In this document: positions 38,416-45,121 of the stretch, one piece after another
Position numbering within the stretch: position 1 is the stretch's first letter
Layout of the letters: every line of letters starts with the position of its first letter
From: Chromatiales bacterium
Lineage (GTDB): Bacteria; Pseudomonadota; Gammaproteobacteria; Thiohalomonadales; Thiohalomonadaceae
Length of the DNA: 62,335 bases
Assembly: GCA_003251535.1 (NCBI GenBank)
Contig: QKFD01000104.1
Location: 1-62,335, forward strand
Reading direction: 5' to 3'
The notes under the pieces: generated by a model
What the model saw: only the letters and a program-made list of their open reading frames with translations
What the model was told of the DNA's origin: nothing
Databases searched by the model: none
Program-made: the position numbers and the translations under genes

Positions 38416-38913
38416 CTATGACGACGGCCACTGCGCCTTGAAAAAGGCGACAAACAAATATCCGAACATAATGAAGTTCGAAACTAGATTGGCCAGCAGG
38501 ACCCGGCCATACATCTCGCCCCGCCCGATCTCTCTAGCGGCCTGGGCCTTGAACAACCGTGGCAGATGCCGCGCCAAAAAACCCTCGCTCAATGCCGAGA
38601 GTAGGGTGGGCAGGAGAAACCAAGAGGGATCGATGACCCCGACTAAAGCCAGGGGAATGCCGAGCAGCAATGAGAGCAGATTCAGCACACCACTCACCAA
38701 GAAGGGTTTGGAGAAGAGCTGTAGGTAGCGATAGATCGCCCCTTCGACAGCGATGCACATCACCATGCACGCACTCACCCACTGCCAAGGGGCCACCGTC
38801 ATCATGCCCCCAAACCAGATGAGTGTTCCTGGAATCGCCGTATTGGCCAGGACCGTTGCCGGTAACAGAAGAGCACCGGCCAACCCCAGCCTAGGCCACC
38901 CCTTCATTTTCAT
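38416..38913 (-). CDS. Four-helix membrane protein of unknown function beside the exosortase genes
   Basis: A 165-residue protein from the ATG at 38913, which has AAGGA 5 bases upstream. Four hydrophobic segments are visible: about 6-31, 38-54, 65-84 and 88-107, with another near 135-158 (VLLANLVSNFIMFGYLFVAFF). Short polar loops include ARHLPRLFKAQAAREIGRGEMYG. I recognise no family. It lies 109 bases downstream of the exosortase-associated gene on the same strand, in an AT-rich gap that may hold its own promoter. A role in the exosortase system is suggested only by position. Confidence 0.75.
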   Translation of the reverse strand: MKMKGWPRLGLAGALLLPATVLANTAIPGTLIWFGGMMTVAPWQWVSACMVMCIAVEGAIYRYLQLFSKPFLVSGVLNLLSLLLGIPLALVGVIDPSWFLLPTLLSALSEGFLARHLPRLFKAQAAREIGRGEMYGRVLLANLVSNFIMFGYLFVAFFKAQWPSS

Positions 38914-39022
38914 CTTTTCCTTATGGAGCAATAGGTTACTAGACTTAACCAGGTTCGAATCAGCCGTTGAAGAATTAAAGTGTTCTAGCAAAACGAGAGG
39001 AGACTGGAGCACCCCACCACCC

Positions 39023-39634
39023 CTACGACTGGTCGGCCGCTGCTTCGTCGGCGGCCCCTTGGGGCCAGATAAGGCCGCGGTTGTACCAGCCCCACAGCAC
39101 CAACGGCGCCAGGCTGGGAATGATGAGGTTACTCAGCTGGTGGGCACTGGCGATGAGGTTCCAACGCCACATCCACGCCTCCTGACCGATGTTGGCGATC
39201 ATGGTGGGACCCAATAGCTCGGCGATCTTCACCAGGGTATAGAGCACCGCCCCGAGCGCCTGCAACAGGATCAGGATCAGGGTGCCCCAGAGCAGTTGTC
39301 GCACCATCCCCCGCCCCCGGGCGGCCAGCATCAGGGCGATGAAGAGCGGTAGCCCCATGGAGTATTGGAGCAGATCACGCTCAAAGGCGATGGGTGGCGG
39401 CGGCAGCTGGCCCGGCTGAGGGGCCGGACGCAGGCGGGTGGTCACCTCTAGCAGATGGCCATCCATGGAGGCGTGGTGCACAAAACGGCCGAAACCGTGC
39501 TCCAGCACCCCCACCGCCAACCAGCCGGGTGGAGCCGAGAGGAAGTTGGCCGCGACCCACCAGAGGGCGAAGCAGGGTATCAACCAACCGACGCTGCGCA
39601 GCAGCAGGGAGACGAGCGGATCACGCTGCGGCAC
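39023..39634 (-). CDS. Exosortase H-associated membrane protein
   Basis: A 203-residue membrane protein. The GTG start at 39634 is chosen because it overlaps the exosortase gene by 14 bases; the long upstream frame is a shadow of that gene. It has an N-terminal helix (about 11-30), a periplasmic stretch with a Pro-rich segment, and two or three later helices (about 92-108, 114-136, 170-187). Similar proteins accompany XrtH-type exosortases. The exact function is unknown; assistance in processing or anchoring of the sorted substrate is likely. Confidence 0.8.
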   Translation of the reverse strand: MPQRDPLVSLLLRSVGWLIPCFALWWVAANFLSAPPGWLAVGVLEHGFGRFVHHASMDGHLLEVTTRLRPAPQPGQLPPPPIAFERDLLQYSMGLPLFIALMLAARGRGMVRQLLWGTLILILLQALGAVLYTLVKIAELLGPTMIANIGQEAWMWRWNLIASAHQLSNLIIPSLAPLVLWGWYNRGLIWPQGAADEAAADQS

Positions 39635-40130
39635 GACGGCGCGCCACCGAGCGGGTCCAGAAGATCCAGACAACAAAGACATCGAGCATGATGAGGATCG
39701 GCCAGAGGTAGAGATGGGCCCACTCAAACACCTCAAGGTGCCATTGACCCAGATAGTAGAGGCTGATGATGCGCACCACATTGAGCGCCTGCACCACCAG
39801 CGAGCCTACCAGGAAACCAACCACCTTCTCCCACAGTGATGCCGAAGGAAAGGCCATCACGGCCGCAAACAGCACCACCATCGCCTCCACCCCGTTACAG
39901 CCGGGGAGAATCGCCACCCCAAAGTTGCTCTGGGAGTTGAAGAGTATGTTCTGGTAGGCGTAGGCGTTGGGGTCCAGCAGGGTAACCAGGCTGGCACAGA
40001 ATTTGGCCAACAGGGCGGTCCACGGCAGCACGACGGCGCGGTGGATAGGGGCCAGCAGCTCCAGTACGAGCAGACCGCTGGTGATGAGCACAAATAGGAA
40101 GAAGAAACGACGTTTGGGATCGCGGGTCAT
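39621..40130 (-). CDS. xrtH: Exosortase, XrtH-like
   Basis: A 169-residue polytopic transpeptidase-like protein of the exosortase family. The catalytic set is visible: Cys78 in ILPGCNGVEA, Arg120 in NVVRI and His139 in EWAHLYLWP. Exosortases cut a C-terminal signal (motif, membrane helix, basic tail) from exported proteins and are thought to attach them to the cell surface. The short length and the partner membrane protein downstream agree with the XrtH class, which normally recognises IPTLxxWG tails. The giant DUF11 gene directly upstream is the obvious substrate. A terminator-like hairpin lies between that gene and this one. Confidence 0.9.
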   Translation of the reverse strand: MTRDPKRRFFFLFVLITSGLLVLELLAPIHRAVVLPWTALLAKFCASLVTLLDPNAYAYQNILFNSQSNFGVAILPGCNGVEAMVVLFAAVMAFPSASLWEKVVGFLVGSLVVQALNVVRIISLYYLGQWHLEVFEWAHLYLWPILIMLDVFVVWIFWTRSVARRRAAA

Positions 40131-40171
40131 CGGCCTCGCCTCAGCTTGCTCAAGTGGCCCGTAGAAAATAC

Positions 40172-40202
40172 GGGCGGCGGGGCCGGAGAGCCCACGCCGC
40201 CC
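40172..40202 (-). terminator. Intrinsic terminator of the giant DUF11 gene
   Basis: GGGCGGCG at 40172-40179 pairs with CGCCGCCC at 40195-40202. On the minus strand the stem is followed by TATTTTC. It starts 18 bases after the stop of the DUF11 gene and would limit read-through into xrtH. Confidence 0.65.
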
Positions 40203-40219
40203 GCAACCAGCGTCTTAGT

Positions 40220-43200
40220 TTACTCCTTATCGATACGCCGCAGACCCCAGCCCAGCAGGCCCGCCGCCATGGCGACGAACAGCAGCGGCGGCATCAGGGG
40301 GATCCCCATCAGCGAGGCGTTGAACAGCGCCGAGGCAGTGACGGCAACCTGACCGTCAACAGCATCGCTCTCGATGTCACCATCTTGATTGGCATCCCAA
40401 TGCAGCTCTGCCACATTGGAGGCCTCGGTGACCCCCGGGTTCAGTATCGTTTTCAGGGTGATCACCACCTCATTGTTGGCGGCATCTTCATCGGCAGCCC
40501 CGCTATCGGAGGCCACCACACCCTCGTAGACGACCCGATTCTCACCCGACTCGAAGTTGCAAGCGGTCACCGTCGAGGCCCCTGTGGCCTCGCAGGTGAC
40601 GCTGCCAGCGACGTATTGGGTGCCATCCGGGATCGGGTCCCACATCCGCACCCGCAGTGACTCAGCGTTCTGGTTGTTAATCCAGACGATGCGCCAGGTG
40701 AGGATCGGCCACTGGACAGAGACCGTCTTGGTCCCCTGCGGCGCCAACAGCAGCGGGTCAACCGTGAGGGTCGCCTCCGCCGGGTCAACACTGACACCGA
40801 CATCGGTCACCAAGGCCCCCGCGGCGATGGAGTTGGTGAAGTCTCCATTGCTGGAGCCCACCACCGTCACCACGATGGTGCAGCCACCGGCCGGAATGGT
40901 CGCACCACTGGCGTAGACGATCTCACTGCTACCCGGGACAGCGGTGACCGAACCGAGGTCACAGCTACCACTCAGGTTGTTGGGATCGGCCACGGTGAGG
41001 CTGGCCGGCAGGCTATCGGTGAAGGGCGCGGTCAGGGTGGCATCACCGGCGTTGGTGTTGCCGAGCGAGAGCGTCAGCTCCGTACCGATGCCAATACGCA
41101 CCGTGCTCGGATTGAAGCCCTTACCCACTGAGGGCGGCGCCAGCACCAACAAGGTCGCCTCAGTGCCGCTGACATTGTTACCAGCGCTGGTCTGAAGGGC
41201 CCCCGCCGCAATGCTATTCAGATAGCTGCCAGCGGTACTGGAGGTGACGCTCAGGGTGATGGTGCAGCCCCCGTTGGGGATGGTCGCCCCGCTGGGATAG
41301 GTGACACTGCTACCACCGGCCACTGCACTCACCGCCCCGGCACAGCTGCCGCCCAGATTGGCCGGGTTGGCCACGAGGGTCCCCGCCGGCAGGTTATCTA
41401 CCAGATCAGCGGTGAGGGTGATGTCACCCGGGTTGCCGTTACCGAAGGTGATGGTGAGCGTGGAGCTGCCATCCACCGGGATCTCCGTTGGGCTGAAGGC
41501 CTTGACCACCGTCGGCGTGGAGACGATCGACAGCGTTGCCTCGGCCGGCGCGGCGTTCTGCCCCGCGCTGGTCTGGAGCCCCCCAATCGGGATGGAGTTG
41601 ACGTAGTCACCGGTGGTGTTACCGGTCACATCCACGGTGATGGTGCACCCCCCAGCCGGGATGGTGGCGCCATTGGCGTAACTCACGCTCCCCGCACCCG
41701 CCACGGCCGTTACGGCACCGGGGCAGCTCCCGCCAACAACGGCCGGGTTGGTCACCGTTATCCCAGCCGGCAGGGTATCGGTGAAGAGGGCAGAGAGGGT
41801 GATGTCGATGGGGTTGCTGTTGCCCAACGTCACCGTCAGGGTGGAGCTATCACCCGGCACGATGGTGGTGGGGTTGAACGCCTTGGCCACGGTCGGCGGG
41901 GCCTGGCTGGTAGGCGTGGTGGTAGCGCTATCGCTGTTGTTACCCGGATCCGGGTCCGGCACGCTAGAGCCGGTCACCGTCGCCGTATTGGTGTAGCTAC
42001 CACTGGAGAGCACCGTGGCGACGATCTGCAAGGTCGCGCTGTGACCGTTATCCAGCACACCGATGTCCCACACCCCGCTACCGCTGTTGTAGGTCCCAAC
42101 CGAGGGGTTGGAGCTGACAAAGCTGTAACCGTCCGGCAGCAGATCGGTGATGATGACGCTACCGGCGTCGCCTGGACCCTGGTTCTGCACCGTGATGGTG
42201 AAGGTGACATTGGCACCATGCACCGGGGTCGAGTTGCTCACCAACTTGGTGACGGCGAGGTCAGCCGGCACCTTGAAGGTGGTGTTCTCGTTGGTGACGT
42301 TGTTGGCGGTGTTGGCCTCGTAGCCGGCGATGGTCTCGACCGAGCTGATCGCCGCGTTGTTGGTGTAGACCCCAGCCACCGGCGTGGTCATCACCACGGT
42401 GAACTCGGCGTAGTCACCGGTGTTGAGATCCCCCAGCGGGCAGTCCACTGGAGTGGAGTTGTCGCACAGCGACCAGTCGCTACCACCACTACAGGTACAG
42501 TCGAAGGTACGCAGCGGCGTGTTGCCACTGTCGTAGATCGTCCCCTGGTTGACCATGGTCACCGTCAGACCCACAGGCGGGGTATCGGTGATGAAGGCCG
42601 CGGTTGCGGTGGAGGGACCGTTGTTGGTGCCACGCACGGTGTAGGTGACGCTACCGCCAGTCGGCACCGGGTCGGGGCTATCGGAGACGTTGATGAGCAG
42701 GTCCAGCTCCGGATCGGTCAAGGTATCCGTCACGCTGGCGCTGTCATTGGCCGAGTTGCGGTCATCAACGGCGGAGCTGACGCTGCCACCAAAGGTGAGA
42801 TCACCCGGCAGCCGCGGACGCACCACCAAGGTCACCGTGCGGGTCACACCATTGCCGATGCTGCTCCAACTACAAATGGGGTTGACCGGATGGTTACAGG
42901 TACCGCCACTACTGGCCGTCACAGAGACGAAATCGACATTGGGCGGCAGCAGATCGGTCAACAGCTCAACCGTCGTGGCCGGCGAGGGGCCATTGTTGCG
43001 CACCGTGAAGACATAGGTGAGCGGGGTGCCAGCCACCAGGGTGCCGCTGGAGGCGACGGTGACCTGGAGATCGGCATCGGGATTGACGGTGGAGCTGGTG
43101 GAGCTGCTGTTGTCGCCGGTGTTGGGATCGCCGATATCTTGGGAGTAGACCGAGCCGGTGTTGCTGCGGCTCCCGGAGGAGGTGGGACGCACCGCGATCT

Positions 43201-45121
43201 GCACAGTGGCCGAACCGCCGTTGAGCACCGTACCCAAGTTACAGGTGAAGGTGCTGCTGGAGAAGCTGCAACTCCCCTGGCTGGGGGTGGCAGTGGGGGT
43301 ACCGGTGTAGTTGGAGAGGCTATCGGTGACGATGACATTGGTGGCATCGGCCGGGCCGCTGTTGTTGACGGTGAGCAGATAGGTGAGGACATCACCCGCC
43401 TGCACCGGATCCGGGCCCACTACCGTCTTGACGATAGCGAGATCGGCGCTATCCCCTGACAGGGTGGTGGAGATGGCGGCAGAGCTGCTGTCGTTGGTGT
43501 TGTTGGGGTCGGTCAGGCAGACGCCGTTACAGGAGACCGTGGCGTTGTTGACCATGCTGCCGGAGGCGCCTGCCGGCACCGTCGCCACCAGGGTCACCGT
43601 AGAGGTGGTGTTGGCGGCCAGACCGGAGCGATCACAGGTCACGGTGAGCGGGTTGCTGGCGTCATCGGTGCAGCTCCAGCCGCTACCGGAGGCAGAGACC
43701 AGGGTGAAGCCCAACGGCAGGGTGTCGGTGATCCGCACCGTACCGGTCTGGGCGGCCGGCCCTAGGTTACGTACCGCGAGGGTATAGGTGACATTCTGCC
43801 CCTCACTCACCGCCACCGGGTTGGCGCTCTTGGTGAGCCGCAGGTCGGCGGTCGGCACCTGGATATTGAAGCTGGAGGTGTCGCTGTTGTTGCTCGGATT
43901 GGGGTCGCTGCCATCGGCCGTCACCGTCGCGGTATTGCTGGCGGACGGGTTGGCGTTCACCGCAGTGGCGGTGAGGGTGATGGCGGGTAGGTTACCCACC
44001 GTTGACTCCGGACCTGGCCGGGAGCAGGTGAGGGTGTTGGGTGTGGTCACCCCAAAGTCACAACTCCAGCCGCTGCCTGCCGAGTGGGAGACGTAGCTCC
44101 AGTCGGGGGTCAGGGTGTCGGTGACGATGATGTTGGTCGGCTGATCACCACCGTTGTAGCGGGCGGTGAGGGTAAAGGTCTGATCGGTCCCCTGTAGCGG
44201 TGAGGCGGAGTTAGGGGTCTTGTCGATGGAGACATCGCTACCCGGATCCACCGCCACGTCAACCACATCGGTATTGTTGTTCTGATCGGGATCAGGCGTA
44301 CCGGTGGAGGGCTGGGCTGACATCGCATAGGTGACGGTACTCCCTCCCACTGCATCAGGCCGCACAGTGATGTGGAGGGTGGAGGTCGCCTGGGCCGGGG
44401 TGAGGGTGCCGGTGTAGACCGCGGTCACCACCCCTGCGTTGTGGCTACAGCTCCAACCCGAGGCACCATCGTTGCTGACGTAAGTCACCCCGGGCGGCAG
44501 GGTGCCGGTCACCGTGATGGAGCCGGTGGCGTTACTCGGCCCGTTATTGGTCACCGTCAGCAGGTAGTCCACCGTCTCGCCGGCCACGATGGGGCTGGCA
44601 CTGGCGGTGAGCGTAGTGGCGAGATCGGCACCTGCGGTGACGGTCGTGGCCTGGCTGATATTGGTGTTGTTGGTGGAGTCGGTATCGGCCTCCGTGCTGG
44701 TGGAGGTAACCGACAGATTGATGGTGCCCACCGTCTGCGGCTGCATCACCAGGGCGACACTAATGTTTTCACCCGCCGCCATCGAGCCGATGGAGCAGGA
44801 GACGGGCCAGCTGGAGTTACAGCTGCCCACCGACGGGCTCACCGACACCAGAGTGCCGTCGGCAGAGAGGTCGTTGGTATCGAAGGCGACATTGGTAGCA
44901 CCGGTGCTACCGTTATTGTCCAAGGTGATGGTGTAGGTGAGATTGCCCCCCGCCACAATGGGGTCGGGGTTGTCGGTCACGTTGACCACCACGTCCACCG
45001 AGGCGTGGGCTACTAGAGGAAGGGCCAGCAGCCCAAACAGTGCCCCAAGTTGATACTTGCGACGCCGGGGCGGTGGAGAGGAGTCGGACCACGCGGGTGG
45101 TTGCGAATGGCTGCAAGACAT
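40220..45121 (-). CDS. Giant exported DUF11-repeat surface protein with C-terminal exosortase sorting signal
   Basis: A 1633-residue protein. GAGGAAGAG precedes the ATG. The first 40 residues form a long signal peptide with an RRRK basic patch and cleavage after AHA. About eight DUF11 (beta-sandwich) repeats fill 42-1070, each beginning with a D-L-x-V-T-like strand and containing TYT-type and NNGPS motifs. Three further, more alike repeats (about 1073-1457) begin with VAKAFNP-like segments. A Cys-containing domain (about 1457-1600) follows. The tail has MGIPLMPP, a hydrophobic helix, then LRRIDKE: the layout of an exosortase signal, but IPLMPP replaces the usual IPTLxxWG. Paired Cys occur in many repeats, suggesting disulfides. 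It is probably an adhesin or surface fibre; its role is inferred. Confidence 0.92.
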   Translation of the reverse strand: MSCSHSQPPAWSDSSPPPRRRKYQLGALFGLLALPLVAHASVDVVVNVTDNPDPIVAGGNLTYTITLDNNGSTGATNVAFDTNDLSADGTLVSVSPSVGSCNSSWPVSCSIGSMAAGENISVALVMQPQTVGTINLSVTSTSTEADTDSTNNTNISQATTVTAGADLATTLTASASPIVAGETVDYLLTVTNNGPSNATGSITVTGTLPPGVTYVSNDGASGWSCSHNAGVVTAVYTGTLTPAQATSTLHITVRPDAVGGSTVTYAMSAQPSTGTPDPDQNNNTDVVDVAVDPGSDVSIDKTPNSASPLQGTDQTFTLTARYNGGDQPTNIIVTDTLTPDWSYVSHSAGSGWSCDFGVTTPNTLTCSRPGPESTVGNLPAITLTATAVNANPSASNTATVTADGSDPNPSNNSDTSSFNIQVPTADLRLTKSANPVAVSEGQNVTYTLAVRNLGPAAQTGTVRITDTLPLGFTLVSASGSGWSCTDDASNPLTVTCDRSGLAANTTSTVTLVATVPAGASGSMVNNATVSCNGVCLTDPNNTNDSSSAAISTTLSGDSADLAIVKTVVGPDPVQAGDVLTYLLTVNNSGPADATNVIVTDSLSNYTGTPTATPSQGSCSFSSSTFTCNLGTVLNGGSATVQIAVRPTSSGSRSNTGSVYSQDIGDPNTGDNSSSTSSTVNPDADLQVTVASSGTLVAGTPLTYVFTVRNNGPSPATTVELLTDLLPPNVDFVSVTASSGGTCNHPVNPICSWSSIGNGVTRTVTLVVRPRLPGDLTFGGSVSSAVDDRNSANDSASVTDTLTDPELDLLINVSDSPDPVPTGGSVTYTVRGTNNGPSTATAAFITDTPPVGLTVTMVNQGTIYDSGNTPLRTFDCTCSGGSDWSLCDNSTPVDCPLGDLNTGDYAEFTVVMTTPVAGVYTNNAAISSVETIAGYEANTANNVTNENTTFKVPADLAVTKLVSNSTPVHGANVTFTITVQNQGPGDAGSVIITDLLPDGYSFVSSNPSVGTYNSGSGVWDIGVLDNGHSATLQIVATVLSSGSYTNTATVTGSSVPDPDPGNNSDSATTTPTSQAPPTVAKAFNPTTIVPGDSSTLTVTLGNSNPIDITLSALFTDTLPAGITVTNPAVVGGSCPGAVTAVAGAGSVSYANGATIPAGGCTITVDVTGNTTGDYVNSIPIGGLQTSAGQNAAPAEATLSIVSTPTVVKAFSPTEIPVDGSSTLTITFGNGNPGDITLTADLVDNLPAGTLVANPANLGGSCAGAVSAVAGGSSVTYPSGATIPNGGCTITLSVTSSTAGSYLNSIAAGALQTSAGNNVSGTEATLLVLAPPSVGKGFNPSTVRIGIGTELTLSLGNTNAGDATLTAPFTDSLPASLTVADPNNLSGSCDLGSVTAVPGSSEIVYASGATIPAGGCTIVVTVVGSSNGDFTNSIAAGALVTDVGVSVDPAEATLTVDPLLLAPQGTKTVSVQWPILTWRIVWINNQNAESLRVRMWDPIPDGTQYVAGSVTCEATGASTVTACNFESGENRVVYEGVVASDSGAADEDAANNEVVITLKTILNPGVTEASNVAELHWDANQDGDIESDAVDGQVAVTASALFNASLMGIPLMPPLLFVAMAAGLLGWGLRRIDKE
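40750..41905 (-). repeat. Three tandem protein-level repeats of about 128 codons
   Basis: Within the DUF11 gene three consecutive units share the order KAFxPT, LTxxxGNxNxxDxTLxA, DxLPAG, GGSCxGAV, GATIPxGGCTI, NSIxxGALxT and EATL. Each is about 385 bases. They are closer to one another than to the eight DUF11 units before them, so they probably arose by recent duplication. Boundaries are approximate. Confidence 0.8.

Follow-up and report, generated by a model that had tools for sequence, protein, structure and literature searches.

We analyzed a 62,335-nucleotide stretch of DNA from a Chromatiales bacterium (assembly GCA_003251535.1, contig QKFD01000104.1; this whole stretch is hereafter the window) that carries, on its minus strand, the genes of an exosortase H (XrtH), its membrane partner and a giant DUF11 protein. 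The locus is probably an XrtH sorting unit of known kind, in which XrtH cuts the adjacent giant protein at an IPLMPP motif. Under this reading, the giant would be exported through Sec, its C-terminal helix retaining it in the inner membrane, whereupon XrtH and its partner would cleave at IPLMPP through a Cys/Arg/His site and the cleaved giant would be handed to the cell surface as a DUF11 stalk, both steps being expected from the family. The recognition motif would have diverged from IPTLSEWG to GIPLMPPLLFV, a sequence carried by one further protein of the same genome. The available text of two published accounts describes DUF11 domains as able to bear an intramolecular isopeptide bond and often forming the stalks of fibrillar adhesins (PMC12617251), and a Methylomirabilis S-layer protein as having a predicted IPTL-CTERM tail (PMC8671808).

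All three genes were found where the original prediction had placed them, and its account of the enzyme and partner held. The XrtH gene (39621..40130, minus strand) encodes a protein scoring 173.9 bits against TIGR04177, for which the curated cut-off is 86, and is not a new exosortase type. Residues Cys78, Arg120 and His139 are invariant in alignments of 6 and of 32 XrtH sequences. Inspection of the AlphaFold2 model (mean pLDDT 95) reveals helices together with short strands at residues 56-73, immediately N-terminal of the active-site Cys. Neither a sequence search nor a fold search (best fold E 0.45) returned a solved structure related to XrtH, so that its reading of the substrate cannot be derived from structure. 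The partner gene (39023..39634, minus strand) matches NF041730, described as exosortase H-associated membrane protein, at 127 bits against a cut-off of 35. This match starts at residue 58 of the longer partner frame, and the likely GTG start is at 39634 rather than 39781, which leaves an overlap of 14 bases with the XrtH stop. Together with the 89 bases that separate the end of the giant gene from XrtH, the family scores and catalytic residues support a pairing of XrtH with the giant.

The giant gene lies directly upstream (40220..45121, minus strand) and encodes 1633 residues containing 10 DUF11 and 5 DUF7933 stretches by domain scan. The protein is presumed to be exported, with a signal peptide at about residues 1-40 as judged by eye only, and is the presumed XrtH substrate. 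It ends, as the original prediction described, in a sorting-tail-like segment (40220..40306, including the stop codon; MGIPLMPPLLFVAMAAGLLGWGLRRIDKE) composed of the GIPLMPP motif, a hydrophobic stretch that is helical in a low-confidence model, and basic residues followed by DKE. The tail matches neither TIGR04174 (IPTL_CTERM) nor PF18203 at E <= 10, which agrees with its predicted place outside the IPTL family, and the whole giant has no match to a sorting-tail family in NCBIfam or Pfam. Such results would suit a giant that is no exosortase client, its tail a mere C-terminal membrane anchor and its adjacency to XrtH a remnant. We consider this unlikely, given that the window XrtH looks intact by family score and model and that tailed DUF11-like giants repeatedly adjoin XrtH elsewhere.

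The latter point comes from a scan of named genomes that confirmed 390 XrtH relatives, the best 80 loci of which were used; being the best of 390, these loci lean to close relatives. An XrtH-associated relative lies downstream of XrtH in 75 of the 80. Where at least 900 bases of upstream sequence were present (72 loci), and with small intervening genes allowed, 17 have a same-strand IPTL-tailed gene ending no more than ~700 bases ahead of XrtH. An eighteenth flagged locus (L075) was dropped, its 107-residue open reading frame having no IPTL-type tail. DUF11-like giants of 1163-1974 residues, stop to stop, account for 11 of the 17, and seven of these 11 share ~34-35% identity with the window giant across ~1040 residues, a figure inflated by the DUF11 repeats. 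XrtH genes adjoining those of DUF11-like giants are a recurrent, already known arrangement, whose recurrence supports the pairing in the window. The described exosortase H/IPTL-CTERM system (TIGR04177, TIGR04174, NF041730) shares the enzyme and partner families and, as the sequence suggests, the tripartite layout of the tail (motif, helix, basic end), and the window XrtH, like those of Acidovorax and relatives, has a DUF11-like substrate candidate nearby. The differences are that the window motif is GIPLMPPLLFV instead of IPTLSEWG, and that one genome here contains two pairs of XrtH and partner along with two classes of tail.

In a tree of XrtH sequences, the window enzyme falls beside the Comamonadaceae clade that is home to most of the neighboring giants. 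This grouping is weak (support 81/86) and lends the pairing some further support; the window XrtH sits on a long branch, 1.69 against a median of 0.12. The final tree left out L073, whose alignment row was 20% filled, and G051 and G195, whose rows were very long. An earlier tree nested an XrtH from a Desulfovibrionaceae metagenome-assembled genome (L108) among Burkholderiales sequences, which reflects either transfer or misbinning.

XrtH is sporadic across the class, with a match above the cut-off in 14 of 369 genomes (the window's own counted). The window's family has 19 other genomes, none with a match above the cut-off and one with a weak match of 24.4 bits. A local tail profile was then scored against at most 22 candidates per genome, leaving out the window's genome as the source of the profile. 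Matches at E <= 0.001 occurred in 7 of 23 other XrtH genomes versus 7 of 345 genomes without XrtH (Fisher p 3.7e-6); in general, IPTL-like tails and XrtH go together. In the seven matching genomes without XrtH, the match lies at the protein end in only two, G239, with a good EIPTLGEWG C-terminal tail (L210), and G102, whose tail is without the motif. In a third, G279, IPTLGEWG occurs in mid-protein (L211). G239, which is 82% complete, and G279 are therefore exceptions, having IPTL-like signals and no XrtH at E <= 1e-10.

Within the window's own genome, 20 TIGR04174 matches at E <= 10 comprise 14 C-terminal, 2 internal and 4 chance matches, and none of the 15 PF18203 matches lies at the giant's end. 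One further tail, on contig C33, was found by the local tail profile, bringing the C-terminal IPTL-like tails to 15, of which 9 exceed the NCBIfam cut-off and two (C105a and C105b) are nearly identical. When each tail was scored with a profile made from the remaining 14, all 15 reached 11.5 to 41.1 bits. In contrast, the two IPLMPP tails, that of the window and that of a protein on contig C11, scored 2.8 and 1.9 bits against the IPTL-like profile, both lower than the median of 6.2 bits that 500 controls with shuffled motifs gave. The best full shuffle of the window tail (500 made, 375 scored) reached 12.3 bits, so that 13 of the 15 IPTL-like tails are clear of chance and those of C10 (12.3) and C32 (11.5) are not. 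By these scores, IPLMPP is a tail class distinct in sequence from the genome's IPTL-like tails. By eye, IPLVGP, IPLIGP and VPLLGP tails suggest a continuum with IPLMPP at its end, an idea rejected by the leave-one-out scores. The proposal of a drifted IPLMPP signal thus stands as regards a distinct tail class, and its pairing with XrtH stays at the level of a prediction.

The original prediction went further, to a dedicated one-substrate system, and this does not survive the second GIPLMPPLLFV protein and the 15 IPTL-like tails; an abundance of IPTL-type proteins in the genome had itself been named as grounds for abandoning the idea. The two tail sets likewise fall outside 'dedicated' in the single-target sense found in the available text on rhombosortases (PMC3237569). 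In that text, rhombosortase/GlyGly-CTERM pairs also place the enzyme gene against the substrate gene, and Cupriavidus metallidurans has two rhombosortase-type enzymes, each with an adjacent substrate. The likeness is limited, as the enzyme is unrelated and here a second IPLMPP protein is encoded elsewhere, and no IPTL-tailed gene was found in the 18 kb around the other XrtH of the genome, on contig C85.

Contig C11 starts inside the gene of its IPLMPP-tailed protein, which ends AGIPLMPPLLFVFMAGGVLLFGLRLVPRR and was matched by a profile of 14 tails including the window's (E 0.006). Over its last 176 residues the protein shares 51% identity with the end of the giant. Identity is distributed unevenly, covering 11 of 11 residues of the GIPLMPPLLFV motif, 72 of 148 in the preceding module and 7 of 17 after the motif. 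This pattern fits a kept signal and argues against a tail that serves as an anchor and nothing more. Misbinning of C11 or C85 was considered and rejected. Both carry the tetranucleotide signature of the window (r 0.87 for C11 and 0.93 for C85), compared with at most 0.64 for 49 loci from other genomes, which makes it unlikely.

The module ahead of the giant's tail (40307..40750, minus strand) is beta-rich in a model of low confidence (mean pLDDT 68; the other four models 33-37). It has no match at E <= 1e-6 among 368 other genomes of the class. We searched a profile of both modules and tails in 62 XrtH genomes, including 50 of the named ones, and obtained matches at E <= 0.001 in four. The Thiotrichaceae genome G410 has two module relatives, ending IPSLSQWGLLILSLLMSLAGLTLYRRHYR and IPTLSQWGIILLVLFVGIVG (the latter with more residues after it), whose tails are of IPTL type, IPSLSQWG and IPTLSQWG. 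The G420 relative terminates in VPVDSRWMLSLLALVLLAAG and basic residues; G093 and G236 gave weak matches, in reading frames that extend far past the matched part. Because the module precedes IPTL-type tails in G410, IPLMPP occupies the position of an IPTL tail, which supports the pairing of XrtH with the giant. A further variant of the IPTL tail, VPVDSRW or IPVDAPW, was seen in XrtH genomes at L170 (in G420) and L099.

Several points weigh against cleavage of the giant by XrtH at IPLMPP. The cleavage is predicted from family and position. Since the tail fails both IPTL models and scores 2.8 bits against the local profile, the case for recognition by XrtH draws on adjacency and on the tail's position. 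Searched with a profile built from both IPLMPP tails, the genome returns these tails themselves at E 4e-25 and 6e-23, and 79 other genomes, of which 73 contain an XrtH-type match at E <= 1e-10, yield no hit under E 0.05, so the pairing gains no independent co-occurrence. Finally, the identity of the motif may stem from recent copying, given that 31 of its 33 bases are identical between the window and C11 and that 3.9% of alignment shuffles yield an identical run of 11.

Copying is central to one account of the two tail classes, by which both XrtH enzymes are broadly redundant and IPLMPP is a tolerated variant that spread when a C-terminal module was copied from one gene of this genome to another. 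In the giant and the C11 protein these modules are indeed paralogous, with nearly identical motif DNA, and 8 of the 15 local IPTL-like tails share the [IV]PxxxP pattern of IPLMPP. The available text of an earlier report also describes PEP-CTERM regions as more similar within than between species (PMC1569441). The account is at odds with the failure of the 15-tail profile on IPLMPP, given what that profile's own members score when left out. We regard redundancy as a serious possibility, though one we would put a little short of even.

The other account draws on contig C85, which encodes a second XrtH 40% identical to the window enzyme (TIGR04177, 140.9 bits) and then a partner of its own that scores 55.9 bits against NF041730 (cut-off 35), the pair occupying L168 9117-10250. 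Inspection by eye and by pattern of 18 kb around the C85 XrtH found no IPTL-tailed gene, the one 91-residue frame being a chance one. In the tree, C85 XrtH is sister to the XrtH of genome G217 (100/100), with both on long branches. G217 has a single IPTL match at E <= 0.05, in a gene ending ~0.5 kb ahead of its XrtH with tail IPTLSEWAMLLLTLLL, which resembles tails of the VPTLSEWAMLLLAGLL kind in the window's genome. Apparent fragments of another gene lie between this tailed gene and the G217 XrtH. C85 XrtH could account for the 15 IPTL-like tails.

That is to say, the genome may operate two orthogonal sorting codes, in which the XrtH-partner pair of the window would have been retuned to a GIPLMPPLLFV signal of its own, borne by two surface proteins, and the C85 pair would keep the IPTL code for ~15 others. 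Two enzyme-partner pairs, two tail classes separable by leave-one-out, the adjacency of the window XrtH to the IPLMPP giant and the G217 sister relationship all point this way. More than one XrtH above the cut-off is also uncommon, occurring in 2 of 50 named XrtH genomes, one of these records being flagged UNVERIFIED_CONTAM. Of 65 well-kept positions in the named-XrtH consensus, the window XrtH, besides its long branch, differs at 14; immediately ahead of the active-site Cys it differs at 4 of 9. This consensus was built from 79 of the 80 named loci and is biased because that set was picked by similarity. However, C85 XrtH, the supposed IPTL enzyme, strays further overall (21 of 65 positions), does so equally often ahead of the Cys (4 of 9) and has the lower TIGR04177 score. 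Its pairing with G217 may be overstated because both are long branches, and the gene fragments loosen the link between the G217 tail and its enzyme. The same split appears in no second genome, and only two IPLMPP proteins are known from this one. We therefore hold two codes to be a tentative proposal, somewhat less probable than redundancy.

With its two XrtH enzymes and two tail classes that can be told apart, the genome amounts to a natural experiment on specificity, in which the residue differences between the enzymes and a swap of IPTLSEWG to IPLMPP are directly testable. The literature searched, which did not extend to the main exosortase paper (Haft 2012), yielded no paper on XrtH specificity. 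The IPLMPP tail type escapes present IPTL models and should be useful to annotators.

Away from the window locus, two proteins of the genome, L011 (contig C95) and L013 (contig C52), have in mid-protein an IPTL-like segment with IPALG and RRGG, after which several hundred more residues come. This recalls the midcut-by-XrtH family (NF033207), although L011, the one scanned, is under the family cut-off (24.8 versus 45 bits).

Within the locus, the 89 bases that separate the giant gene from XrtH (40131..40219, minus strand) fold into a GC-rich hairpin with a U-rich stretch after it. Compared with shuffled sequences, their folding gave z -2.82, and 2 of 200 shuffles folded equally well; a terminator scan did not flag the gap. 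The hairpin is a possible attenuator that may reduce transcription of XrtH relative to the giant. Immediately 3' of the partner gene, 38416-39012 on the minus strand encodes what appears by eye to be a membrane protein, with no Pfam match. The XrtH and partner genes do not deviate in composition from the rest of the window, and the giant gene is unlike the remaining window in composition (r 0.53, lower than 46 of 46 other windows).

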